This document shows positions 60-64,000 of a stretch of 64,000 bases of DNA, one piece after another. The DNA comes from Halichondria panicea (Eukaryota; Porifera; Demospongiae; Suberitida; Halichondriidae): assembly GCF_963675165.1 (NCBI RefSeq), contig NC_087382.1, positions 6,062,315 through 6,126,314 on the forward strand, in the 5' to 3' direction. Numbering within the stretch: position 1 is the first letter of the stretch; each line of letters opens with the position of its first letter. Made by a program: the position numbers and the translations under genes. The notes beneath the pieces are model-generated. The model saw nothing but the letters and a program-made list of their open reading frames with translations, searched no databases and was not told the origin of the DNA.

Positions 60-3000
60 AGGTGATCACATGTTCACCACTTGCACCTCCTGTCAATGGA
101 ACCCTCACGTTCACTCCTGGTGTTGATAACAGCAACATTGGACTGGGATCAGTGGCCACCTACTCCTGTAACCTCGGCTATGTGCTAGTGGGACAATCTA
201 TAAGAGAATGTCTAACTACAAATGGTGGAGCTTGGAGTGGATTGGTCCCTATATGTGAAGGTATCTAATGTACCATCATTACCACGTAACTAGATGTATA
301 AGGGATTTGCAATGTCATACATAGTGATTATGTAATGCAGTTTGTTAAAAACATGTACTGCTATCTTTGATAAGTATTGTGTAGCGTGAGTGTGCACCAG
401 TATTTAATTTAGTCTTGCGAGCAGCCGTCGAAGGGGGAAGGACGTCTGGTAAAACCCGCCGCTTTTCCATGAGCCCATTTTGGAATGTGTCGCACCAATC
501 AGATTGCCAGATTTTAATATTTTGGGTGGGGTTTTACGTAACCTGTAGAAAGGAAATGTGCACTATAAAGAAAAGCAGCTATAGATCTACATGTAGACGC
601 CAGAGTGTAGAAGCCTAAAAGCTAGACTAGCTGCTGCTATTTGATTTGTGACAGTGTTGCTGCCATAAAGCTAGGTTATAAGGAGCTCAAACCCAAACAA
701 AAGTTAGCTGTGTGAAGGAAATGTGTGCAGATCTGGAGACGTGTTGCTTATCTGGGAGCAGCTTTTGAGGGAACAGTGCGTCCTGTAGTGGGACTCTGTA
801 GCAGACTCAGTATTATGACATGTTCTGACAACATTTAAATTATAGTGACATAATAATTAATAATCATACACATATCACATTCCTGAGTATCATGGAAAAG
901 CGGCGGGTTTTACCAGACGTCCTTCCCCCTTTGACGGCTGCTCGCGAGACTATATTTAATTAAGGACTGTCCGAAGATGATAATCATATAATTATTATGC
1001 AGAGGCTGTCTTCTGTCCAATACTAACGGCCCCAGGCAATGGTAGTGTGACTATCAGTTCTGGTGTCAACCCCCTCAGTGTGGGGTCAGTGGCTACCTAC
1101 TCATGTGACCCAGGTTACGCCCTCCTGGGACCCCCCACCAGGGCTTGTGAGGACCCAAACACTGACTCAGTGGGAACATGGAACGGAACAATGCCAGATT
1201 GTGAAGGTGAAGTTGTGATCAAACTGTCTCTAAGTGAATACCCTGTGGTTATTAGATGCCAATAATTCAATAGGGGATCAAACGTTGGTCTCGCTTAAAC
1301 GCCTCACCCTGGAACCTCAGTTAGGAATTTGAAGAAAAGTGTCCGTGTAGTGTTACTTTACACAATGTGATTTCTAGTAATCTTACTTATTGTACTAATG
1401 CGTAATACTAGAATATTTTGCGAGGTCAACATATGCGAATTTATATGCAAGTGTTGATCACTTCGCAAACGTAAAATTGCAAAATCTAAATTAGTACTGG
1501 TAATTAAACACGATTGCCAGAACGCAATAGTTTAGATTGCAAAGATTCAATTATTCTGCTGATTTGGCTCATTCGTGAAGGTTTTTCACCAGCAAGTAAT
1601 ATATAGCTACGGTACTTTGAACGTTTATTATTTCTCACAATTTATTTTGCTCGATGATTATTGTGTTGATTTCTTTTATAAGGTGTGTAACTCATTTTCA
1701 TAGTGATTCTTTGCCCTGAGATCATGGCCCCTGTTAATGGCACCCTCATCATTTCCACCCCCTCACCAACCCAACCTCTTGGTGTGGGCACCACTGCCAC
1801 CTACTCGTGTGACCCTGGCTATGTTCTGGTTGGTGATCTCACTAGGACTTGTGAAGACCCTGGAACTGGAACAGTAGTCGGAACTTGGAGTGGCTCAGAA
1901 GTGGATCCTACATGTGAGTATTTTGTGTACATTTTAAGTTTAGGGTGTACAGTTAATCACTGGAACATTTTTGGATCACTAGCTACATATGTACATAGTT
2001 TTTATTGAGATTGAATTTGCTAACTTAATTATTAAACTGGTAGTTTGCTCCAGGGTTACCTCCGTATGTGGGATAACCCATTTTAACTGCAGGTGCTATA
2101 CCAAACAGAGCTCTCATGGACTGTGAGGATACAACATGTCGATACGAACAGCTGGTGTGTCCCGATCGAGACAACTGTACAATAAACTGTAATGACACGG
2201 AACCATACGCTTGTTTCAGGACTGGTGTTGTGTGTCCGAGTGTGTTGGGAGATTGTAATCTCAATTGTGATGATTCTTTTGCATGCTTACAAGCTAACAC
2301 CACATGCCCTCAAGGGAACTGTAATGTGAACTGTCCGAGTGATTACTCATGTCAAAATTCAGTGATGCAATGCTCGGGTGACAACTGTCTCCTATCCTGT
2401 GAGGGCCAAGAATCATGCTCGTATTCAACTATCGAATCCTCAGGGGAAAACTACCTACTCAACTGCGAAGGACAAGATTCATGCTCTTATTTAGACTCCG
2501 AATGTTCGGGTGAAAGTTGCCGCACAAATTGTTACAATGACCGATCATGCTCACACTCAACCTTAGACTGCTCTAATGGAAACTGCAGCTTACACTGCAC
2601 TGATGAGCATTCTTGTCAATATTCGACAATGATGTGCTCACAGGGTACCTTTTGTGATGTGAATTGTATCAATGAAGTGCGAGCATGCCAGCAGTCCGAA
2701 TTTGTGTGTGAACAAGGCAGTACCTGTGTCTTCAATTTCGATGGAGGGAACAATGGTGACTATATTGGCTCGAGTACAGACATCACATGTGAAGAGAACA
2801 GTACCTGCAGCATCAGGTGCACTGGACTGCGTAATAATGCTAGTCACCAATGTTCTAATGCTGATATCATCTGTCCCACGAGTAATGGAGAGTGTACTGT
2901 TGAGTGCAGTGGTTACTATTCCTGTCAATTGTCACGCATTACATGTGGACCAAATAGTGACTGCTTAACTTGTAGCGGAGAGTCGTCATGCCGTGAATCA

Positions 3001-3390
3001 ACTATCACACTACAAGCCGGTTCAAATGCACCTATTATGAACTGTAATGGCCTTTCATCTTGTCAATCCTCTCGTATCACTTGCCAAGCTAACAACAATT
3101 GCAATATCAACTGTAATGCACAGAACTCGTGTCAATCCTCTACCATCATTTGCCCAACTAACAACAACTGCACTATCAACTGTGATGGCCAGTATTCCTG
3201 TAATAATGCTCGAGTGACCTGTCCCACTGGAGACTACAACTGCAACATACGCTGCACTGACCCACTGTCCTGTCAAGGCTTGAGTATCACCAACACACAC
3301 AATGTCAACCTGCTCTGTTGTGGTGGTCCCACTGCTTGTGCAGGAACGAGTGTGGTACCCACCTCCATCGAATGCCCCTACATTAATTAA
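60..3390 (+). CDS. Sushi (CCP) repeat protein with C-terminal cysteine-ladder domain, 5' end outside window
   Basis: Four coding exons are visible: 60-260, 1003-1206, 1704-1913 and 2093-3390 (TAA at 3388-3390). The first three are symmetric phase 1-1 exons of 67-70 codons. Each encodes one sushi/CCP domain: four cysteines, the GSVATYSC-like core, a GTW or GAW tryptophan, and an ending such as PICEG. Donors are gtatct, gtgaag and gtgagt. The last exon completes a split cysteine codon and encodes about 430 residues of short cysteine repeats. Sushi domains are extracellular protein-binding modules, so this is probably a secreted or membrane-tethered surface protein. The decayed tandem copy at 5594-12653 starts with a membrane anchor and coiled coil, so the missing 5' part of this gene probably does too. 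All exons seen here are intact. Function and ligand are unknown. Confidence 0.85.
410..952. mobile_element. MITE with 63-bp inverted repeats and 9-bp target duplication (Mutator-like)
   Basis: Arms 410-472 and 890-952 are inverted copies with two mismatches, beginning TAGTCTYGCGAGCAGCC. The direct repeat tatttaatt at 401-409 and 953-961 is a 9-bp target-site duplication. The element is 543 bp, carries no transposase, and sits in the intron between two sushi exons. The TSD length points to the MULE superfamily; this is inferred from structure only. Confidence 0.85.
1400..1614. mobile_element. Short dispersed MITE, copy 1
   Basis: This stretch closely resembles 33201-33409: both contain AAATTAGTACTGGTAA, CTGCTGATTTGGCT and a right end of GCTACGGTA or AATACGGTA. 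The ends are imperfect inverted repeats. It lies in the intron between sushi exons 1003-1206 and 1704-1913. No coding capacity. Confidence 0.6.
2093..3390 (+). other. Terminal exon: about 16 cysteine-ladder repeats
   Basis: Within the sushi gene, this single exon encodes repeats of about 22-26 residues. A typical unit reads SC-x3-I-x-CP-x-NNC-x-INC, with four cysteines per unit. The spacing suggests a right-handed solenoid stapled by disulfides. N-glycosylation sequons (NCT, NCS, NST) are frequent. Three units lack cysteines, and each time two are lost together (see findings). I know similar repeats only from uncharacterised proteins. The exon has no membrane segment or GPI-like tail, so the C-terminus looks extracellular and free. 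Confidence 0.8.
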
Positions 3391-12892: not shown

Positions 12893-15800
12893 TCACACTT
12901 CATTACTTATGAGGCCTATTTCTGTGTGTGTAACAGCAGGACGACGGTTGAATTTTGGAGGGGGAGGGGCTGGTCTGTAGTCCTCTGTGGTGAGGGGGGC
13001 TAGTACGTCCAGGGCAGGCTCTCTCAGCTGGTCTGGCCTCGTGGCTGGTCTGATGATGGGAGGGGTCATGTAACGATCAGGGTCAGCTTCTTCCATGGCT
13101 CCATCAGTGTAAGGTTGTGGGTCCACAATGCCTATTTGCTCAGCTAAAAGTCCTTCATTGTCATCGTCATCAATTTCATTTGCTGCCAACAGATGTATTT
13201 CCATGGCATTGTTAGGTTCTCGGTTCTTTTTGTATGCAACACCAGTTGTCAAGTTTTTTGCGACTTGCTTTATCTTAAGCCATGTCTTGGTCTTCTTTAG
13301 TATGAATTGGTGGAAATGGTAGCTGATTATTGTCACAAAGAGAATGAAAGCTATGGACATTGAAAGAATGGTCAGTGTTTCTTGCTGTTGGTGTGTTTCA
13401 ACAACATATGAAGTGCCAATAGATAGAATACCGAGATTAAACAAAAAGAATGTTTCTAGATATTCGTTAAGTTGCTTTTTGTGCACTCGATTGGTCAATG
13501 ATATCAGTCCGAATGCAATACACCCAGATGATAGAACAGGGAGAGAAGTGTTTGGAGCCATGGCAACTACTAGATTATGTGCAATCAGAGCAAAAAGGAG
13601 CAGCCCCACCCAGTAGCGATGCTTGGGAGTGAATGGAGCATGGTATACATCCATGAAACCATTGTAATATGTGTTCTTGGTCCATATCATAACCTTGGAA
13701 CAGCGAGGAAACCATTGTCCAAAAAAGAGTAATACAGTGAACAATCCACCGGCAATGAGGATAATGGCTGCAGCAACAAACCGAGGGATGTGATTGGGAG
13801 TGAAGTATGGTACATTACCATCAAACAACCAAACAGTCTTGGTTGAGCCATCAGGATATTTCAAGACCCTATTTTGTAGTGCAGCAACGATAAACCGTAA
13901 GAATTTAGAATAAGAGAGTAAAACGAGTGTGCCTAGGGCAGCAACTGGGTTCCTGTTGGAGAGAAGCTTTGCAAATAAGTCAGAGTACTTACTTAAAATG
14001 ATTATTAAGAATACTAGAAGAAACAAGTAAGCAGGAAAGACGAGTTGAAGAAGCACTTTTGCTTGAGAGTTCATTCCATCGTAAAAGCATGTCTCGATTC
14101 CCAGGTCAAGATTCACCCATGATATGAAAACTGTTACAAAGTTGTTTAGTTTAGGAAAGAAAATGGCTCTATTAGCAGCTACTATGTTGGCGTAAAATAT
14201 GAGGCCATGAATACTTCCAGTTGCTATAGTGATGTTGAGCACGAGAATTAAAGCAACTAGCAATATCCCAACGAGCGCAAATGGTATTAGTAGAAGAAGG
14301 TAAAGATTAGAGCATTCTTTACAATTTGACGTAGCCAACACAATACTGAGTCCTGATTCACATTCTCCACACAAGACACCACTTCGATTGTAGGCACATT
14401 GTTTGTCAGGGCTACTTAGGCTGATGTTGACTGGTTTTTCTACACAATAGTCAAATGTGCAGTTACTAACAACATACCCCGTTCCATTGGTAGTTATGAA
14501 TTCTATCCATATGTTGTTATTACTTTCCAGCTTTAAAATTCCATTTTCCTCAGAACAGTTTATTATCTGATATTGTTCCAAGTCTGGATCACAGTCACAC
14601 TTGCACTCAGTATCAGACTGAATTGGTTTGAGTCCAATAGGGCATGTGCAGGGTAGAAAAGAAATATTGATAATTTGTCTTGAAATTCCCAAATTGATGC
14701 ATGGACCCTCGGCATAGAGTTCCACTTGAGCAGAGCTGTCTTGTGAGAATACACTGTACTCTAATTCTGTACACTGATTGCCAACTTTTTGTTTTGCCTG
14801 TCCTTCTTTGAGACGACCAACTCCACTCTCAGTGACAACAGAACTATAAATTGTGGCGTTCACTGGATTTCCAACTTGGTCAATAGCCATAAAACTGATT
14901 CTAAATGTGTGTCCCTTTCTTGTATATGTTAAATGTTGCGAATTGTTACAAAACATTACTCGAACAGGCCTAGATGAGATTGCTAATTCGGTGGAGGATT
15001 TTACGGTACTATTTGTGTAATCAAATCCGTTTGAAGAACTGTTATATTCAGCATTTTGAATTGCTGTACACCTATCCAACAGACCTCCATAGATGTCTCC
15101 TCCTGACTGGGTAGCTGTGTTGTTAGTCATGAATGTGTTGAAGTGGTTTATTTCTATGTTCAACGTGTATCCATACGAATTGATTGTTTGAATAAAGCAA
15201 TCCTTAAAAATTGTTTGAGTAGCATCAGTTTCTATGACCCCACCTCCACACACACTCCTTTGTGTGTCATCTGCCACAAATATTCCCCCTCCGTGCTGAG
15301 CTGAGTTGTTTTTAATCGTTAACGTGACTAATGTAATATCTTGAGGCTTTTCTACCACATCTTCATAGTGTTTTTTAAATAAGTACAGTCTCGAACTTTG
15401 CTGTAGAAACACTCCACCTCCTTTAGCACTTGCTGTGTTTGAGTCAATGTTAACATGTGCCTGAGTTAGTTCAATGGTTGTAGCTACTGCATAAATACCT
15501 CCGCCATTCTCGGCAATGTTGTCAACAATCTCACTGTGTTTATTTGTGCCCCTGAAAATTGGTAACACAGATTGAAATTCAACTTTGCTAAAATAAGTAT
15601 AAATGCCTCCACCATTCTGTGCTGTGTTGTGATAGATCTTTATTGTCTTGTTTACAAAAAGTGTACTCTCTCTTAGAAATATTCCTCCTCCAGAGGTAGC
15701 CGTGTTGTTTTTCAGTGTACTGTCGGAGATAGACACAGTACTGCCTAGGTTACCATAAATCGCTCCACCACTCCTGTCAGCTCTGTTGTTAGTCAGTGTG

Positions 15801-17800
15801 CTGTTGGAGATGAATATGCATACAGTGCCTGAGTAAACACTAATCGCCCCACCATCATAGCCAGCACTGTTGTTTGTTAGTTTGCTGTTGGAGATGGACA
15901 CGCTACCTGAACCAATACTAATCGCTCCACCAATATAGACAGCACTGTTGTTTGTCAGTGTGTTGTCGGAGATAGTCAGACTGCTAGTCAGACTGCTTGA
16001 AGTAACGTACAACACTCCACCATAGTCAGCTCTGTTGTTTGTCAATGTGCTGTTGGAGATGGACATATTGCTTGAGTCAACACTAATCGCTCCACCATAG
16101 TCAGCTCTGTTGCTTGTCAGTGTGCTTTCGGAGATGGATACACTGCTTGAGTAAACACTAAGCATTCCACCGGTGTTAGCACTATTGTTTATAAGTTTGC
16201 TGTCGGAGATGAACACACTGCTTGAGAAAACAGTAATCGCTCCACCATAGTCAGCTCTGTTGCTTGTCAGTGTGCTTTCGGAGATAGACACACTGCAGCT
16301 GAAACCAACACTGATCGCTCCTCCACCATAGTCAGCTCTGTTGTTTGTCAGTTTGCTGTCGGAAATGAACACACTGCTTGAGTAAACACTAATCGCTCCA
16401 CCATATTCAGCAGCTCTGTTGTTTGCCAGTGTGCTGTCGGAGATAGACGCACTGCTTGAGTAAACACTAAGCATTCCACCGGTGTTAGCACTATTGTTTA
16501 TAAGTTTGCTGTTGGAGATGGACACGCTACCTGAACCAACACTAATCGCTCCACCAATATAGACAGCACTGTTGTTTGTCAGTGTGTTGTCGGAGATAGA
16601 CAGACTGCTTGAAGTAACGTAAAACGCTCCACCATAGTCAGCTCTGTTGTTTGTCAGTGTGCTGTTGGAGATGGACATACTGCTTGAGTCAACACTAATC
16701 GCTCCACCACCAATGTTAGCTCTGTTGCTTGTCAGCTCACTGTTGGAGATGGAGACACTGCCTGAGTGAGCATAAATTGCTCCACCCCTTTTGTCAGCAC
16801 TGTTGTTTGTCAGTGTGCTGCCAGAGATAAACACTCTGCCTGAGTCAACATTAATCGCTCCAACAATCTCATCAGTACTGTTAATGTTGCGTGTCAGTGT
16901 GCTGTTGGAAATAGACACACTCCTGCCTGAGGAAAAAGCAATCGCTCCACCATCATTGTTAGCACTGTTATTTGTCAGTATGCTGTTGGAGATGGACACA
17001 CTGCTTGAGTAAATACTAATCGCTCCACCATACAGAGAAGCTTCATTATTTGTAAAGTTACACGAAGTGATCACTACTGTACCAGATACCAATTCTACTG
17101 CTCCTCCGCTCCAAGCACTGTTATAGTTGAACTCTGTGTTGTTGATCAGAGAGTTGTTTGATTCAATGTAAACTGCACCTCCATCATTTCTTGTGAAGTC
17201 GCTATTTGTTATGTACACATCAATAGCCTCAACATGCATTGCCCGGCCAGTGTTGTTCATAAAGAGAGTGCTTTTAATTGTTACAATTTGAGTATTAGCA
17301 ATCTTAACTAGGTGGGTTTCCACTTGATTGAGTAGTACAAAAAAGTTCATAAAGTAGCAGTCGTTGATATAGACATTGTGGGCACTGTCAATGGTCAAAT
17401 CTCGATGTGAGTTTCGTGGTCCAACATTCGCTCCATTAATGAAACCCAAGCGTTCAATACTCAATTCAGTGGTACTAAAAAAACGTATCACACCATTGCT
17501 ATAGAATCTAATTACAGCTGTACTTTTGCTCTGACTGGTAATATGCACATGTCTAAAGTTACGAATCAATAACTGCTCAGTTAACACATGATCTCCAGGT
17601 AGAAAGCTTAAGGTGAGATTGACTCCACCAGATAACAGGTCTGTTTGAACAAGCTGCTCGAGAGTGAAACAAGTTACATTTCGGTATCCATTGCACAAGT
17701 CAGTTGAATCCACCAACACAATTTGATAGTGCTCACTCCTGATAACAGTAACTATGGTCAGGAATAGCACTAACCAGTTGAGAATATTTCTAGACAGCAT
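12893..17800 (-). CDS. PMP-like beta-helix protein with multi-pass membrane C-terminus, intronless
   Basis: A single open frame of about 1,635 residues. I place the start at 17798-17800 (MLSRNILNWLVLFL): the second copy starts the same way, it opens a good signal peptide, and the 22 codons upstream are an AAT/ATA microsatellite (poly-Tyr/Asn). Residues about 60-930 form a parallel beta-helix. It includes 17 near-identical coils of about 23 residues (SISNSTLTNNRADYGGAISV type) with the GGA and NN signatures of chlamydial Pmp/autotransporter repeats. A cysteine-rich linker follows (about 1050-1160: CTCP, CKCDCDPD, CGECESG), then 7-9 hydrophobic segments (about 1165-1490) and a charged, proline-rich cytoplasmic tail. 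Many NxS/T sites fit an extracellular helix. It is probably a surface adhesin or receptor; the function is unknown. Confidence 0.85.
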   Translation of the reverse strand: MLSRNILNWLVLFLTIVTVIRSEHYQIVLVDSTDLCNGYRNVTCFTLEQLVQTDLLSGGVNLTLSFLPGDHVLTEQLLIRNFRHVHITSQSKSTAVIRFYSNGVIRFFSTTELSIERLGFINGANVGPRNSHRDLTIDSAHNVYINDCYFMNFFVLLNQVETHLVKIANTQIVTIKSTLFMNNTGRAMHVEAIDVYITNSDFTRNDGGAVYIESNNSLINNTEFNYNSAWSGGAVELVSGTVVITSCNFTNNEASLYGGAISIYSSSVSISNSILTNNSANNDGGAIAFSSGRSVSISNSTLTRNINSTDEIVGAINVDSGRVFISGSTLTNNSADKRGGAIYAHSGSVSISNSELTSNRANIGGGAISVDSSSMSISNSTLTNNRADYGGAFYVTSSSLSISDNTLTNNSAVYIGGAISVGSGSVSISNSKLINNSANTGGMLSVYSSSASISDSTLANNRAAEYGGAISVYSSSVFISDSKLTNNRADYGGGAISVGFSCSVSISESTLTSNRADYGGAITVFSSSVFISDSKLINNSANTGGMLSVYSSSVSISESTLTSNRADYGGAISVDSSNMSISNSTLTNNRADYGGVLYVTSSSLTSSLTISDNTLTNNSAVYIGGAISIGSGSVSISNSKLTNNSAGYDGGAISVYSGTVCIFISNSTLTNNRADRSGGAIYGNLGSTVSISDSTLKNNTATSGGGIFLRESTLFVNKTIKIYHNTAQNGGGIYTYFSKVEFQSVLPIFRGTNKHSEIVDNIAENGGGIYAVATTIELTQAHVNIDSNTASAKGGGVFLQQSSRLYLFKKHYEDVVEKPQDITLVTLTIKNNSAQHGGGIFVADDTQRSVCGGGVIETDATQTIFKDCFIQTINSYGYTLNIEINHFNTFMTNNTATQSGGDIYGGLLDRCTAIQNAEYNSSSNGFDYTNSTVKSSTELAISSRPVRVMFCNNSQHLTYTRKGHTFRISFMAIDQVGNPVNATIYSSVVTESGVGRLKEGQAKQKVGNQCTELEYSVFSQDSSAQVELYAEGPCINLGISRQIINISFLPCTCPIGLKPIQSDTECKCDCDPDLEQYQIINCSEENGILKLESNNNIWIEFITTNGTGYVVSNCTFDYCVEKPVNISLSSPDKQCAYNRSGVLCGECESGLSIVLATSNCKECSNLYLLLLIPFALVGILLVALILVLNITIATGSIHGLIFYANIVAANRAIFFPKLNNFVTVFISWVNLDLGIETCFYDGMNSQAKVLLQLVFPAYLFLLVFLIIILSKYSDLFAKLLSNRNPVAALGTLVLLSYSKFLRFIVAALQNRVLKYPDGSTKTVWLFDGNVPYFTPNHIPRFVAAAIILIAGGLFTVLLFFGQWFPRCSKVMIWTKNTYYNGFMDVYHAPFTPKHRYWVGLLLFALIAHNLVVAMAPNTSLPVLSSGCIAFGLISLTNRVHKKQLNEYLETFFLFNLGILSIGTSYVVETHQQQETLTILSMSIAFILFVTIISYHFHQFILKKTKTWLKIKQVAKNLTTGVAYKKNREPNNAMEIHLLAANEIDDDDNEGLLAEQIGIVDPQPYTDGAMEEADPDRYMTPPIIRPATRPDQLREPALDVLAPLTTEDYRPAPPPPKFNRRPAVTHTEIGLISNEV

Positions 17801-21244: not shown

Positions 21245-24200
21245 TCACACTTCATTGCGTATGGGGCCGATTTCTGTGTGTGTAACAACAGGATAACAGT
21301 TGGCTCTTTGAGGGGGAGGGGCTGGTCTTCTGTAGTCCTCTACGGTGAGGGGGGCTAGTACGTCCAGGGCAGGCTCTCTCAGCTGGTCCGGCCTTGTGGC
21401 TGGTCTGATAATGGGAGGAGTGATGTAACGATCAGGGTCAGCTGCTTTTACTGCTTCATCAGTGTAAAGTGGTGTGCCCACAATGTCTATTTGCTCAGCT
21501 ATAAATCGTTCATTGTCATCGTTATCAATTTCAAACTGATGCATTGCCATGGTATTGTTAGGTTCTCGGTTCTTTTTGTATGCAACTTCACCAGTTGTCA
21601 AGTTTTTTGCAACTTGCTTTATCTTGAGCCATGTTTTAGTCTTCTTTAGTATGAAGTGGTGGAAATGGTAGCTGATTATTGTCACAAAGAGAATGAAAGC
21701 TATGGACATTGAAACAATGGTCAGTGTTTCTTGCTGTTGGTGTGTTTCAACAATGTATGAAGTGCCAATAGATAGAATGCCGAGATTAAGCAGAAATATT
21801 ATTTCTAGATATTTGTTAAATTGGCTTTTGTGCACTCCGTTGGTCAATGTTATCAGTCCGAATGCAATACACCCTGATGATAGAACTGGTAGAAAAGTGT
21901 TTGGAGCCATGGCAACTACTAGATTATGAGCAATCAGAGCAAAGAGGAGCAGTCCCACCCAATAGCGATGCTTAGGAGTGAATGGAGCATGGTATGCGTC
22001 CATGAAGCCAATGTACTTTGTGTTCTTGGTCCATATCATAATCTTGGAACAGCGTGGAAACCATTGTCCAAAAAAGAGCAATACAGTGAACAATCCACCG
22101 GCAATGAGGATTATGGCTGCAGCAACAAAGTGTGGAATGTGATTGGGAGTAAAGTATGGTACATTGCTGTCAAACAACCAAACAGTCTTGGTTGAACCAT
22201 CGGAATATTCCAAGACCCTGTTTTGTAGTGCAGCAACGATAAACCGTAACAATTTTGAATAAGAGAGTAAAACGAGTTTGCCTAGGGCAGCAACTGGGTT
22301 CCTGTTGGAGAGGAGCTTTGAAAATGAGTCAGAGTACATGCTCAAAATGATTATTAAGAATACTAGAAGAAACAAGTAAGCAGGAAAGACAAGTTGAAGA
22401 AGCACTTTTGATTGAGAGTTCATTCCATCGTAAAAGCATGTCTCGATTCCCAGGTCAAGATTCACCCATGATATGAAAACTGTTACAAAGTTGTTTAGTT
22501 TAGGAAAGAAAATTGCTCTATTAGCAGCTACTATGTTGGCGTAAAATATGAGGCCATGAATACTTCCAGTTGCTATAGTGATGTTGAGCACGAGAATTAA
22601 AGCAACTAGCAATATCCCAGCAAGCGCAAATGGTACTAGTAGAAGAAGGAAAAGATTAGAGCATTCTTTACAGTTTGATGTAGCCAACATAACACTGAGT
22701 CCTGATTCACATTCTCCACACAAGACACCACTTCGATTATAGGCACACTGTTTGTCAGGGCTACTTAGACTGATGTTGACTGGTTTTTCTACACAATAGT
22801 CAAATGTGCAGTTACTAACAACATACCCTACTGTTCCTGTTGTGGTATTTATGAATTCTATCCATATGTTGTTATTACTTTCCAGCTTTAAGGTTCCGTA
22901 TTTCTCAGAACAGTTTGTTATCTGATATTGTTGCAAGTCTGGATCACAGTCACACTTGCACTCAGTATCGGACTGAATAGGTTTCAGTCCAATAGGGCAT
23001 GTGCAGGGTTGAAAAGAAATATTGATAAGTTGTCTTGAAATTCCCAAATTAATGCATGGACCCTCAGCATAGAGTTCCACTTGAGCAGAGCTGTCTTGTG
23101 AGAATACATTGTACTCTAATTCTGTGCACTGATTGACAACTTCTTGTTTTGTCTGTCCTTCTTTAAGACGATCAAATCCACTCTCACTGACAACAGAACT
23201 GCGAATTGTTGCATTCATTGGATTTCCAACTTGGTCAACAGCCATAACACTGATTTTAAATGTGTGTCCCTTTTTTGGAGAAACATAGTCACTTTGTGAA
23301 TAGTTACAAAACATCACCTGCAGGGGCCTAGAGGAAATTGATAATTCGGTGGAGGATTTCATGGTGTTATTTATGTAGTCCAATCCAGATCCATTTGAAG
23401 AAATTTCATATTCAGCATTTTGACTTATTTTACACCTATCCAACAGACCTCCGTAGATGTCTGCTCCTGATTGGATAGCCGTGTTGTTAGTCATGAATGT
23501 GTTGATATAGTTCGGATTATTGTTGTCCTCCTCATACAGTTTAATTGTTTGAATGAAGCAGTCAGCAAAAATGGTGCGAGTATCATCATCTTCTGTGACC
23601 ACTCCTCCACACGCACTCCTCTGTGTGTCATCTGCCACAAAGATCCCCCCTCCGTATTGAGCCAAGTTGTTGTTAATCGTTAACTTGACATACATACCAG
23701 TTCTTTTAAATAGGTACAGTTTCGAACTTTGCTGTAGATAAACTCCACCTCCACTAGCTTTAGCTGTATTTGAATCAATGTGAATGAGTAAATTTAATAG
23801 TTGAAGATACTGCATGTATACCCCCACCATTCTCAGCAATGTTGTGAGCAATCTCACTCAGTTTATTTGGAGGAAGTGGATCACCATATGCATCTACCAT
23901 CTGCACTGATTGGAATTCAACTCTGCTAGAATATGCATAAATCCCTCCACCATTCTGTGCTGTGTTTTGATATATCTTTATTGGCTTATTTACAAAGAGT
24001 GTACTCTCTCTCAGAAATATTCCTCCTCCAAAGGTAGCCGTGTTGTTGTTGATGATAACTCCTTCTGTGTTAACGTATACTTCACTCTGGACAATGCTGA
24101 TGGCTCCTCCCAGCATACCACGATTGTTACTGAGTGTCGTAGGTCCAATAAACTCGATTCGACTATTGAAAGCATAAATGGGACCATTGTTGCTGACAAT

Positions 24201-25550
24201 ATTAATTCCAGTGAATGTTACATTTGATTGCGAAATGTTCAAACTGCGTATGTTGTTAGTAATGTTAGTGTTGTTGATGATCAAGGTGGAAGATTGGAAG
24301 ACATCAATTACCCCACCTTCATTAGCAACGTTGTTTTTAAGCTCACTGTCGGAGATGGAAACAGTACCTGAGTAAACACTGATCGCTCCACCATAGTCAG
24401 CTCTGTTGTTTGTCAGCTCACTGTTGGAGATGGACAAATTACCTGAGTCAACACTAATCGCTCCACCCTCATTAGCAACATTGTTTGTCAGCGTACTGTC
24501 GGAGATAAATACACTGCCTGAGTAAACAATATAAATCACTCCACCATAATAGTTAGCACTGTTGTTTGTCAGCTCACTGTTGAAGATGGACACATTGCCT
24601 GAGACAACATTAATCGCTCCACCACTATTGGTAGTTGCACTGTTGTTTGTCAGCATACAGCCGGAGATGGATACACTGCCTGAGTAAACACTGATCGCTC
24701 CGCCGCCGCTGTCGGCACTGTTGTTTGTCAGCTCACTGTCGGAGATGATTACACTGCTTGAAACAGCAGTGATGGCTCCACCATACTGAGAAACTTTGTT
24801 ATTTGTAAAGTTACACCAAGTGATTACTACAGTACCAGATACCACTTTTAATGCTCCTCCGTTCCTAGCACTGTTATAGTTGAACTTTGTGTTGTTGATC
24901 AGTGTGTTGTTTAAATCAATGTCAACTGCACCTCCATCATTTCTAGTGAACTCGCTATTTGTTATGTACACATCATCAACCTCAATGTGCAGTGCCCGAC
25001 CGGTGTTGTTCATAAAGAGAGTGTTCTCAATTGTTGCAGTTTGAGTATTAGCAATCTTAACAACACAGGTTTCCACCTGATTGAGTAATTTAAAGTCCGA
25101 AAAGTAGCAGTCTTTGATATAGATATCATGGGCACTGTCAATGATGATCAAACTTTGATCAAAGTTTTGTCGTCCAATATTCCCTCCAACGAAACCCAAG
25201 TCTTCAATGCTCAATTCAGTAATACTAACAAAACGTATCGCACCATTGCTATGAAATCCAATTACAGTTGTACTTGTATTCTGGCCAGTGATTTGCACAT
25301 GTGAGAAGTTACAAATCAGTAACTGCTCAGTTAGCACATGATCTCCAGGTAGAAAGCTCAAGGTGAGATTGTCTCCATCAGATAACAGGTCTGTTTGAAC
25401 AAGCTGCTCGAGAGCGAAACAGGTTCCATTTCGATACCCATTACACAAGTCAGTTGAATCCACTGGCACAATGTGATAGTGCTCACTCCTGGTAACAGTA
25501 GCTAGGGTCAGTGGCAGTACTAACCAGCTGAGAATATTTCTAGACAGCAT
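21245..25550 (-). pseudogene. Second PMP-like beta-helix membrane gene, one frameshift
   Basis: A tandem paralogue of the gene at 12893-17800, same strand, starting MLSRNILSWLVLPL (25548-25550). It has a signal peptide, a beta-helix with only about 6 of the near-identical coils, the same cysteine-rich linker, 7-9 membrane segments and a cytoplasmic tail. The C-terminal half is very close to the first copy. The frame breaks at about 23785-23800: the first part ends STIKFTHSH and the rest resumes at HIDSNTAKASGGGVYL. Alignment to the first copy implies a net 8-bp deletion. Without it the protein would be about 1,430 residues. Either a recent pseudogene, a polymorphic null allele or an assembly error; the rest of the frame is undamaged, so any loss is recent. 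Confidence 0.8.
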
Positions 25551-25609
25551 ATCCATCTGCATGAGGTGCATGTATAAAGGATTGTTAGCATGGTGAAGCG
25601 AAATAGTAG

Positions 25610-25660
25610 ACTCACAATCCGCCACTGTTGCACGGCGAACAACTGTGGCGGCTTATGAGT
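25610..25660. repeat. Hairpin just upstream of the second PMP-like gene
   Basis: Arms ACTCACAATCCGCCACTGTT and its imperfect complement surround TGCACGGC. The same core (TGTTGCACGGC) and outer ACTCGCAAGCCGC sequence occur in the hairpin at 57462-57514, so this is a small dispersed foldback. Confidence 0.6.

Positions 25661-26621: not shown

Positions 26622-26695
<74 letters not shown>
26622..26695. repeat. (TG)n microsatellite
   Basis: About 37 uninterrupted TG units. Confidence 0.95.
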
Positions 26696-43458: not shown

Positions 43459-52707
<9,249 letters not shown>

Positions 52708-57958: not shown

Positions 57959-59858
57959 TCAGGCAGTTACTGTCGGCCTCATTGAGAAAATGATATCGTT
58001 TCCCAGATTACTATTGATGTAGCCAATGTCGTACTTTCCCACTTTCAGAGTGAGGCTTTTCCCTTCGTAGTTGACTTTATCATACACTAATCATTCGCCA
58101 AAGGTGACCTCAATAGAAGAAACAATGTTATTGAAATCTAGCGGAATAAAGCTCGAAATATCTTCGTACAACTTCAGGCTTTTCCCTTTGAAACTGCCAG
58201 CATCGTACAGGATTATCTCAGCAGGTCTAGCAGAGGAAATTACGTCACTTCCAATTTTCTCCGAGATAAATCCGAAGTCGTACTTCCCAACTCCCAGAGT
58301 GAGCCTGTACCCTTCGTAGTTGACGGACTCATAGACAGTCCACACACCACTCTCAACCTCAATGGAGGAGGCTTTGTTGTCGAAGCCGAGAGGAGTGAAG
58401 TTAGGGGTAGCTTTAGAAAGAGGAAGAACTTTCCCCTGAAAATAGCCAGTGTCGTACAAGATAAGTTTAGGTATCTTTCTGCAAGGGAAGAGGGAATCAT
58501 AATTACAATGGATTTATGTGAGAACAGTACATGCACATGCACAATGCCTAATAATACTTAAACTTCCATCTCACTATCTCTATACCTTCACTACACACGG
58601 CATTGTACATCTACTGCTAGTATACATGTATATATAGTCAAGGTGTCATACAGGGGGGAAGGGGGATATCCCCCCCTAGCTCCAATTCCCCCCCCCCTTT
58701 CAATTATGACTGAGTGTCCATACCTGGGCATTGAAATAACAGTTGACCTTTTTTTAGCAACATTTTCTGATTACTTTTCTCATTTCCCCCCTCTACTTCA
58801 AAATCCTGTATGACACCCTGATAGTACTATTTAAACATTACAGCATGATTACGTATTAGTATAGTGCTCACCTCAGTCCCACGGAAGAGATGACATCGTT
58901 TCCAAGAGTCTTGGTGATGTAGTGAAAGTCGTACTTTCCGACATTCAGATCGAGTCTTGCTCCTTGGTAATCGCAGTGCGTGTACACTGACCATTCACCA
59001 AAGGTGACCTTAATAGAGGAGACAATAATTATTGTTAAAACCCAATGAAATAAGGCTCTGAGCATCATACAACTTCAGAGTTTTCCCTTTGAAACCAGCA
59101 GCATCATACAGGGTTATCTCAGCAGGTCTAGCAGAGGATATGACATTACTTCTAATTCTCTCCGAGATAAAGCTGAAATCGTACTTTCCAACTCCCAGAG
59201 TGAGCCTGTACCCTTCGTAGTTGACGGACTCGTATATAGTCCACACACCACTCTTGACTTCAATGGAGGAGGCTTTATTGTCGAAGCCGAGAGGAATTAA
59301 GTTGGAGGCAGTTTTGGTGAGGGAAAGGGTTTTTCCTTGGAATTGGCGTGCGTTGTACAGGATAAGTGTGGGCATTTTTCTGTAAGGGGAAGAGGAATAT
59401 TCACAAAAACAATAAAAAGTGTACTTTAACATGCCACATTCTTTTAGATATAATTATGGTTTTTACTACTGTTTTCAAACAGTGTTCTCATGGCAATAAT
59501 TATGTTCACCTCAGTCCCATGGAAGAGATGACATCTTTCCCCAGATTCTTGGTGATGTAGTTTATGTCGTACTTTCCAACATTCAGATCGAGTCTTGCTC
59601 CTTGGTAGTCGACGTGATTGTACACTGACCATTGACCAAAGGTGACCTCAATAGAGGAGACACAGTTGTTTAAATCTAGCGGAATCAAGCTCTGAGTATC
59701 ATCGTACAACTTCAGGACTTTTCCCTTGAAACCGCCAGCATCATACAGGATTATCTGAAGCCGAGAGGAAAGAAGTTGGAGGTGCTTCGGTAAGGGGAAG
59801 GGTTCTTCCCTGAAATTGGGTCGCCTCGTACAGGATAAGTTTATAGGCATCATGCATT
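57959..59858 (-). pseudogene. Six-domain beta/gamma-crystallin gene, left arm, multiply broken
   Basis: Three coding exons, each a module of two crystallin domains (four Greek keys): 59858-59510, 59379-58872 and 58478-57959. Donor CTGAG|GTGA joins the next module in phase (GLRK). Module 1 lost about half of its first domain and begins with a 2-bp insertion after ATGCC. Module 2 has a 4-bp insertion near 59030 (508 bp instead of 504). Module 3 has TGG changed to TGA at 58091-58093 in the TFGEW motif; the frame then continues to a natural end (RPTVTA) at 57959. Calcium-clamp motifs of the D/N-D/N-x-x-S-S type are retained (DNKASS, NNIVSS). Family members bind calcium; sponges have a known member, geodin. 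A pseudogene as read. Confidence 0.8.
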
Positions 59859-62624: not shown

Positions 62625-64000
62625 AGTGATGCCTAAACTTATCCTGTACGAGGCGACCCAATTCCAGGGAAAAACCCTTCCCCTTACCGAAGCTACCTCC
62701 AACTTTTTTCCTCTCGGCTTCAACAATAAATCCTCCTCCATTGAGGTCAAGAGTGGTGTGTGGACTATCTACGAGGCTGTCAACTACGAAGGGAGCAGCC
62801 TCACTCTAAGGGTGGGAAAGTATGACCTGGAGTACATCGTTAACAACCTAGGAAGTGACATAATTTCCTCTGCGGGAAAGTCCTGAAGTTGTACGATGAT
62901 ACTCAGAGCTTGATTCCGCTCGATTTAAACAACTGTGTCTCCTCTATTGAGGTGACCTTTGGTCAATGGTCAGTGTACAATCACGTCGACTACCAAGGAG
63001 CAAGACTCGATCTGAATGTCGGAAAGTACGACATTGACTACATCACCAAGAATCTGGGAAATGATGTCATCTCTTCCGTGAGACTGAGGTGAACATAATT
63101 ATTGCAATGAGCACAATATACTTTCAATTGTATCTGTTTGAAACAGTAGTAAAAACCATAATTATATCTAAAAGAATGTGGCATGTTAAAGTACTTTTAT
63201 TGTTTTTGTGAATATACCTCTTCCCCTTACAGAAAAATGCCCACACTTATCCTATACGACGCACGCCAATTCCAAGGAAAAACCCTTTCCCTCACCAAAG
63301 CTGCCTCCAACTTAATTCCTCTCGGCTTCGACAACAAAGCCTCCTCCATTGAAGTCAAGAGTGGTGTGTGGACTATATATGAGTCCGTCAACTACGAAGG
63401 GTACAGGCTCACTCTGGGAGTTGGAAAGTACGATTTCAACTTTATCGCGGAGACAATTGGAAGTAATGTCATATCCTCTGCTAGACCTGCTGAGATAACC
63501 CTGTACGATGCTGCCGGTTTCAAAGGTAAAACTCTGAAGTTGTACGATGCTCAGAGCCTTATTTCGTTGGGTTTTAACAATATTATCTCCTCTATTGAGG
63601 TCACCTTTGGTGAATGGTCAGTGTACACGCATTGCGACTACCAAGGAGCAAGACTCGATCTGAATGTCGGAAAGTACGACATTGACTACATCACCAAGAC
63701 TCTTGGAAACGATGTCATCTCTTCTGTGGGACTGAGGTGAGCACTATATTTTCAATGCTAATACATGATTAGTAATTAAATTAAAAGGCATACTGTAATG
63801 TTTAAATAGTACTGTATACATGCATGTATACTAGCAGTAGATGTACAATGCCGTGTGTAGCACTGAAGAGAAGTGAGACGGAAGTTTAAGTATTTATTAG
63901 GCATCGTGTGCATGTACTGTTCTCACATAAATCCATTGTAACTATGATTCCCTCTTCCCTTGCAGAAAGATACCTAAACTTATCTTGTACGACACTGGCT
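62625..64000 (+). CDS. Multi-domain beta/gamma-crystallin gene, right arm, first module frameshifted, 3' end outside window
   Basis: Exons 62625-63088, 63233-63736 and 63966 onward. Module 1 starts MPKLILYEATQFQGKTLPLT but breaks at about 62872: a deletion fuses the end of domain 1 to domain 2 out of frame and TGA follows at 62884-62886. The rest of domain 2 is open (LYDDTQSLIPLDLNNCVSSI). Module 2 is intact: 168 codons, two domains, four Greek keys, with clamps DNKASS and NNIISS, phase 2 at both ends. Its ATG at 63237 could also yield a free-standing 167-residue crystallin ending at TGA 63738-63740 if the intron were retained. Module 3 starts RKIPKLILYD and runs out of the window. Confidence 0.75.

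Follow-up and report, generated by a model that had tools for sequence, protein, structure and literature searches.

The genome of the sponge Halichondria panicea contains a native multigene family with at least 202 loci that carry its membrane domain; they are spread over 17 contigs, and contig C6 alone has 91. The family is large and clustered, consists mostly of long single frames, follows a uniform plan where it was read and carries a membrane core outside the curated families; it is the main result beyond an earlier sequence-only reading of one member. This member (the window gene) lies in the window, i.e. the whole 64-kb stretch of DNA analysed here. To judge from sequence, the family may, with a probability that we put close to even, represent lineage-expanded cell-surface receptors that recognise on contact, or capture, a putative ligand. 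The receptor-like reading is strengthened by the number of loci, their clustered duplication, the conserved core and a tail box that recurs in distant members.

The window gene (12893..17800) is a single open frame on the minus strand, running from an ATG at 17800 to 12893 and encoding 1635 aa plus stop; the sequence-only reading had its coordinates right and left the strand unstated. Upstream of the ATG the frame stays open for at least 22 more codons. Going by the open frame, the gene reads as one exon, and an intron may be present in the 5'-UTR. The window contains four closed frames of 200 aa or more, three of which belong to the window gene and its neighbour copy. Since long closed frames are so few and seven other full-length paralogs keep both frame and plan, the frame is not due to chance. 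An alignment of the window gene with these seven window-type paralogs (1453-1635 aa) extends over the whole length, signal peptide and tail included.

The earlier proposal that a signal peptide, a beta-helix, a Cys-rich linker, a multi-pass core and a tail are joined in one frame was borne out by sequence, Pfam, AlphaFold2 and hydropathy. The hydrophobic N-terminal sequence MLSRNILNWLVLFLTIVTVIRS (about aa 1-22; 17735..17800) was taken by eye for a probable signal peptide, and MLSR followed by SEHY(H/Q)IV is kept in all eight aligned full-length copies. It is followed by the beta-helix ectodomain, at most about aa 82-853 (15242..17557; Pfam, AlphaFold2 and Foldseek), and by the helix end with a Cys-rich linker, which includes the ATQSGGDIYGGLLDRC region (about aa 854-1141; 14378..15241; sequence and alignment). 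Then come a juxtamembrane Cys box, CxxC-x12-CxxC (C1144, C1147, C1160 and C1163; 14303..14377), a membrane core (about aa 1167-1500; 13301..14302) and a putative cytoplasmic tail (aa 1501-1635; 12896..13300), all on the minus strand.

A second family copy is located nearby in two frames (21245..25625, minus strand; N part 23775-25625, C part 21245-23857). Its membrane domain is 92% identical to that of the window gene, and it has no single open frame in this assembly. By Pfam, the N part matches Chlam_PMP and the C part, weakly, DUF7630. About 1 kb upstream of this copy there is a perfect (TG)37 microsatellite (26622-26695). Elsewhere the window contains a Cys-rich frame of 424 aa built from short Cys/Ser repeats (2116-3390, plus strand), which had no Pfam match at E 0.01, and a ZU5-like frame (49758-50279, plus strand), for which the Pfam ZU5 match (5.6e-4, 20.6 bits) is just below the cut-off of 21. 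Between 58091 and 63740 both strands carry frames resembling beta/gamma-crystallin, four in all (58091-58459, 59010-59432, 59506-59853 and 63183-63740); the two that were scanned match Pfam Crystall (5.2e-18 and 1.1e-27).

The ectodomain of the window gene matches Pfam Beta_helix (2.1e-27) and Chlam_PMP (6.3e-27, in 11 stretches, 91.1 bits against a cut-off of 20.6). With its coils of about 25 residues and its short strands, it was found to be a right-handed parallel beta-helix. Structure prediction had been proposed as a check, and in the AlphaFold2 model of residues 1-1142, which was built from a single sequence and has a mean pLDDT of 52.7, short strands repeat as in a beta-helix, giving about 23 coils at residues 163-742 (pLDDT 51-87; strands counted by the author). 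The pLDDT is below 50 for most of residues 1-132 and for all of 743-1142. Thus, the coils announced by the sequence-only reading are seen in both AlphaFold2 and Pfam, with confidence for about aa 163-742, while its figure of some 870 residues is an upper estimate because of the low pLDDT outside the coil block. The best Foldseek matches of the model in PDB are beta-helices, with pertactin first (E 9.9e-3, probability 1.0); none reached E 0.001 or better.

The coils had been described as PMP-type, and the Chlam_PMP match might be taken to mean that autotransporters of the Chlamydia Pmp type were the source of the helix, the more so as the N part of the second copy also scores (3.3e-16). The score, however, derives from coils that have been amplified locally: five distant paralogs are all under the cut-off, four with values of 0.012-0.49 and one with nothing at E 1. 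No match to a C-terminal autotransporter beta-barrel was found by Pfam in the window gene, whose C-terminal part is hydrophobic and multi-pass by profile, and pattern-based scans with the membrane part as sole query revealed no relatives in viral contigs or prokaryote genome contigs. A bacterial origin is thus barely credible. The 'PMP-type' label is true of the window gene in that Chlam_PMP is over the cut-off there, and is otherwise generic; it was not upheld, since the match comes from amplified coils and the pattern-based scans revealed no relative of the membrane domain in those contigs. Chlamydial Pmp proteins (PF02415; PMC11166332) share with the family GGA(I,L,V)-type coil motifs, a large beta-helix and membership of a paralog family, but end in an autotransporter barrel instead of an alpha-helical multi-pass core and a tail; in the sponge family the coil resemblance fades in distant paralogs. 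Such genes may receive a 'Chlamydia PMP' or 'pectin lyase fold' label in annotation and be taken for bacterial contamination or transfer.

A large part of the helix is encoded by a coding minisatellite (15703..17032, minus strand; TRF and coil analysis), in which a 78-bp unit, corresponding to about one coil, e.g. GGAISVDSSSMSISNSTLTNNRADY, is repeated about 16.9 times. A tandem array of 75-81 bp is present in all nine copies studied, the split copy included, and the main array varies from 5.5 to 16.8 units; the eight full-length copies carry 14-24 coil motifs each. Coil DNA is only slightly more alike within a gene than between genes (identity 0.605 versus 0.575; 24 of 1000 permutations were as high). 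This supports the gain and loss of coils between paralogs and says nothing on alleles.

Coils of this kind are also compatible with a passive adhesin or surface coat, in which the helix would serve as a sticky fibre or glycosylated spacer, simply anchored by the multi-pass part. They are repetitive, rich in Ser/Thr/Asn and variable in number, and the ectodomain of the window gene has 33 sequons, slightly above the 26 +/- 4 of shuffled sequences; its best fold neighbour, pertactin, is itself an adhesin, and a long repetitive rod with many sequons would be equally expected of an adhesin or coat protein. The features that speak against this explanation, which we consider unlikely, lie in the membrane core and the tail. 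An anchor needs neither about nine passes, with W, N, D, K and E positions unchanged in all 16 members aligned, nor a C-terminal box that recurs across cores only about 35-45% identical.

Protein-level constraint on the family genes is indicated by dN/dS values below 1 throughout (Nei-Gojobori, 28 pairs of eight copies, with sliding windows in addition). The core has the lowest value (0.24), followed by the Cys box (0.31), the linker (0.40) and the N-cap (0.50); the coils gave 0.61 and 0.47, where repeat alignment inflates dN as well as dS, and the tail gave 0.65, the highest of the seven regions in these window-type copies. In windows of 80 codons the core, at 0.19-0.28, is among the most constrained parts. 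In no region of the eight window-type copies does dN exceed dS, and the signature of diversifying selection, or of an arms race, is therefore not seen. The word 'polymorphic' in the sequence-only reading was not upheld: coil number differs between paralogs, and no diversifying selection is shown.

The hydropathy average over 38 copies has 11 peaks in the membrane core, and so does the average over 16 divergent copies. Taken together with the charge pattern, these were read as nine passes plus hydrophobic loop segments, which is a reading of the profile and not a structure. Three weak and closely spaced peaks, centred within residues 1193-1230, were read as probably a single pass next to a hydrophobic loop that is conserved; the other eight peaks bring the number of passes to nine. 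The loops at 1270-1288, 1361-1396 and 1436-1447 and the segment beyond the last helix contain on average 3.1, 6.2, 1.9 and 3.7 K/R and 0.4, 1.4, 0.8 and 0.4 D/E, respectively, whereas in the loops 1212-1249 and 1309-1339 D/E exceeds K/R. This balance fits a core with its N-terminus outside and its C-terminus inside. The loop between TM1 and TM2, which would be inside in the nine-pass reading, is short and nearly uncharged. The earlier estimate of 7-9 hydrophobic segments was thus sound as to a multi-pass domain, with 11 peaks seen and nine passes favoured over seven by charge. The residues invariant in all 16 aligned cores include W1228, N1230, D1232, C1238, K1248, W1324, D1327, W1397 and E1449.

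The membrane part of the window gene had no Pfam match at E 10, and for the core no Pfam family, 7tm models included, was over the cut-off at the 14 loci scanned with hmmscan (15 queries; E limits of 10, 10 and 1). In PDB, the core had no match by sequence and no chain by profile at E 10, and AlphaFold2, run with a two-sequence alignment from the window, gave no usable fold (pLDDT 37). It is possible, if quite unlikely, that the core does the work, as a channel or transporter that the ectodomain gates or places, as in polycystin- or TRP-like proteins. The reading of nine passes rather than seven would suit such a protein, as would the strong constraint on the core and its unvarying charged and polar positions within or close to the membrane, e.g. 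in the SWxNLDxGIxxCF segment; against it stand the hmmscan queries, in which no family of this kind was over the cut-off, and the outcome of the PDB profile search for a core that lacks a usable fold model.

A new class of GPCR, in which seven of the helices would form the G-protein-coupled core, is highly improbable. The outline of the protein, i.e. a large ectodomain, a Cys-rich juxtamembrane part and a tail, does recall GPCRs; but the number of helices and the distribution of charge are better matched by nine passes, and 7tm models matched none of the queries, although the 7tm_1 model works in the same genome (22 places, 19 over the cut-off). The description of the protein as a receptor, made by the sequence-only reading, is accordingly plausible on grounds of architecture and family context, and not in the GPCR sense. 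The adhesion GPCRs of another demosponge, Amphimedon, likewise combine a large modular ectodomain with a multi-pass core; in the available passages of PMC4302439 this core is 7tm_2 and a GPS site is present in 28 of 40 proteins, whereas the family described here has neither a 7tm_2 nor a GPS match and is read with nine passes.

The Cys box just before TM1 has all four Cys invariant in 16 of 16 aligned members. The 45-position model DUF7630 (PF24633) matches this box and covers nothing else of the protein; the window gene scores under the cut-off (17.8 bits against 27, residues 1132-1163). In the genome, four matches to DUF7630 were over the cut-off (27.6-27.9 bits; C2:466376, C11:5689058, C6:1072133 and C6:1109471) among the 150 scored of 349 candidates, and all four are family loci. 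The domain was found in none of 14 control genomes; the 11 named are prokaryotes, so this zero is uninformative on eukaryotes.

The tails suggest the existence of cytoplasmic partners. The last 60 residues were compared in 25 distant members (19 tails fetched as pieces, six taken from longer loci; close relatives included). The exact string REPLL occurs in 11 of them, where shuffled tails average 0.009 and never exceed 1, and a looser variant in 22, against 2.0 on average and at most 8 after shuffling; the loose pattern was devised after the tails had been seen, so that the counts are descriptive and the exact string is the safer number. Exact REPLL was not found in the 27 tails of the window gene's own clade. 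The tail of the window gene contains DRYMTPP, DQLREPALD, APPPP and VTHTEI, and similar boxes are found across its clade: (D/E)QLR and D(R/H)YxTP in 27 of 27 tails, VTxxEI and APP in 25 each, and DQLREP in nine, the remainder having LRLSY or alike. These counts drop three cut-short tails of 30 (L017, L026 and L033), and the tail set leaves out L046-L053 and L055. An ITIM-like motif is not claimed, VTYTEI being present in just four of the 27 window-type tails. It is doubtful that the family as a whole shares a single cytoplasmic partner, given that dN/dS is highest in the tail and that exact REPLL is missing from the window-type clade. This absence also makes the receptor reading slightly less probable and a passive adhesin slightly more so.

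The size of the family was established by successive searches of the host genome (131.5 Mb, 39 contigs). A DNA search gave 41 matches, and a 369-aa core query gave 112 rows, i.e. 111 loci among the matches listed, one row being removed as a second piece of the locus at C6:1582124. Each protein search scored the best 104-111 of about 400 candidates, and more distant members were then used as queries. The successive core queries added 111, 9, 77 and 5 loci and a further one none among 104 rows; even so, 202 is a lower bound. For 145 of the 202 loci the match is free of stops and the open frame around it measures at least 1000 aa, some frames possibly being inflated by N; in 80 it measures at least 1300 aa. 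A stop interrupts the match in 13. A giant frame of 2847 aa at C6:3203998 (L080 together with L037, from C6:3196957 onward), is N-filled and was dropped as evidence of extra length, and other very long frames (e.g. 2206 and 1971 aa) may likewise be N-inflated. In one distant member, L054 (C2:465000-468400), the helix and core parts are in the same frame with a stop codon between them, which would make it either a decayed gene or a gene with a small intron.

The plan of the window gene is also found in five distant members with cores 35-40% identical to its own. Each has in one frame a beta-helix-like part, a linker, a Cys box, a core and a tail (1128-1295 residues in the fetched frame; L057 lacks its first residues, and no signal peptide is visible there). 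Pfam recognises their helix strongly only in L058 (Beta_helix 4.8e-18); in the other four its support is weak or absent, and the helix is read there from coil motifs of the NN/N-x-A...GGA/GGV type visible before the linker. Altogether, the order of parts is common to all 13 loci, of the 202, that were read across the ectodomain.

Family loci are strongly clustered: 66.8% have a neighbour within 20 kb, compared with 20.2% under random placement, a test for which contig C3 was taken as 8 Mb (a guess). In a tree of 45 cores, 28 rows from eight physical clusters group together, with nine label changes against a shuffled mean of 19.3, and none of 200 shuffles was as low as nine. Deep forks of this tree are unsure, as the bootstrap is unsettled and branches are long, and single clusters are not always one clade. 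Retroposition as the source of the open frames is not supported where the 3' flanks are alike for about 660-900 bp of the 900 bp compared, i.e. in five of the six copies of the C6 3.1-Mb cluster and in L018, L029 and L030 of the 4.7-Mb cluster. In the remaining copies the likeness stops about 60-540 bp past the stop codon, and in six of 30 none was found. Three pairs of loci have identical scores (C6:1274758/C6:1391419, C6:1389152/C6:1479306 and C4:876037/C4:895463); these are perhaps very recent segmental duplicates or assembly duplicates.

NLRs are intracellular proteins that combine NACHT and LRR. Their expansions in sponges provide another large presumed recognition repertoire, with 126 bona fide NLRs in Dysidea avara according to the available passages of PMC12909245; the beta-helix family differs in its predicted cell-surface location and comprises at least 202 loci. 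The host genome has at least 102 NACHT matches (102 of 265 candidates scored), with dense groups of loci on C13, C14 and C7. Many of them also sit in frames of 800-1700 aa, and the beta-helix family is thus not alone among expanded families in having long open frames. In scale, the family (at least 202 loci) may be set against 22 places for 7tm_1 and at least 102 for NACHT, although counts made with curated models are not strictly like for like. The abundance of NACHT loci would fit a microbe-sensing animal.

Similar unannotated proteins may occur in other sponges and in protists. The literature covered, with most subscription papers and bioRxiv outside its scope, yielded no paper naming the family or DUF7630. 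The terms pectin and beta-helix do not occur in a survey of choanoflagellate GPCRs (PMC12716839), nor do pectin, beta-helix and polymorphic in a paper on prokaryotic genes in Amphimedon (PMC4784904). One lead comes from SECOM Table 3 (PMC3386278), where 18 segments, two of them with a 'pectin lyase fold', make up a putative novel domain cluster that may or may not correspond to the beta-helix family; the sequences, membrane passes and species of the cluster are not given in the available passages of that paper.

If the members of the family are receptors for contact recognition or capture, the coil rod, displayed at the cell surface, would offer a variable face for contact with glycans or with the surfaces of bacteria or neighbouring cells. 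The conserved linker, Cys box and core would relay binding across the membrane, and the tail boxes (REPLL in distant members; DRYxTPP, a proline-rich box and VTxTEI in the window-type clade) would bring in partners from the cytoplasm for signalling or uptake. Tandem gene duplication, combined with coil gain and loss in the coding minisatellite and with the core preserved, might give rise to new specificities. The sequence-only reading had suggested a role in self/non-self or microbe recognition, which we also infer; in a filter-feeding animal, microbe discrimination or capture would be the likeliest use, with allorecognition as the alternative.

Sponges discriminate bacteria and the tissue of their own kind, and the 202 or more loci offer a concrete set of candidate receptors for this ability. 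A more far-reaching, and unlikely, possibility is that they form an as yet undescribed receptor superfamily of an early-branching animal, in which coil arrays encoded by an in-frame minisatellite would, by gaining and losing units, give individual-specific surfaces coupled inward via the core and tail boxes. If true, such a family would provide a repertoire for microbe choice or self/non-self recognition without immunoglobulin, LRR or SRCR domains.
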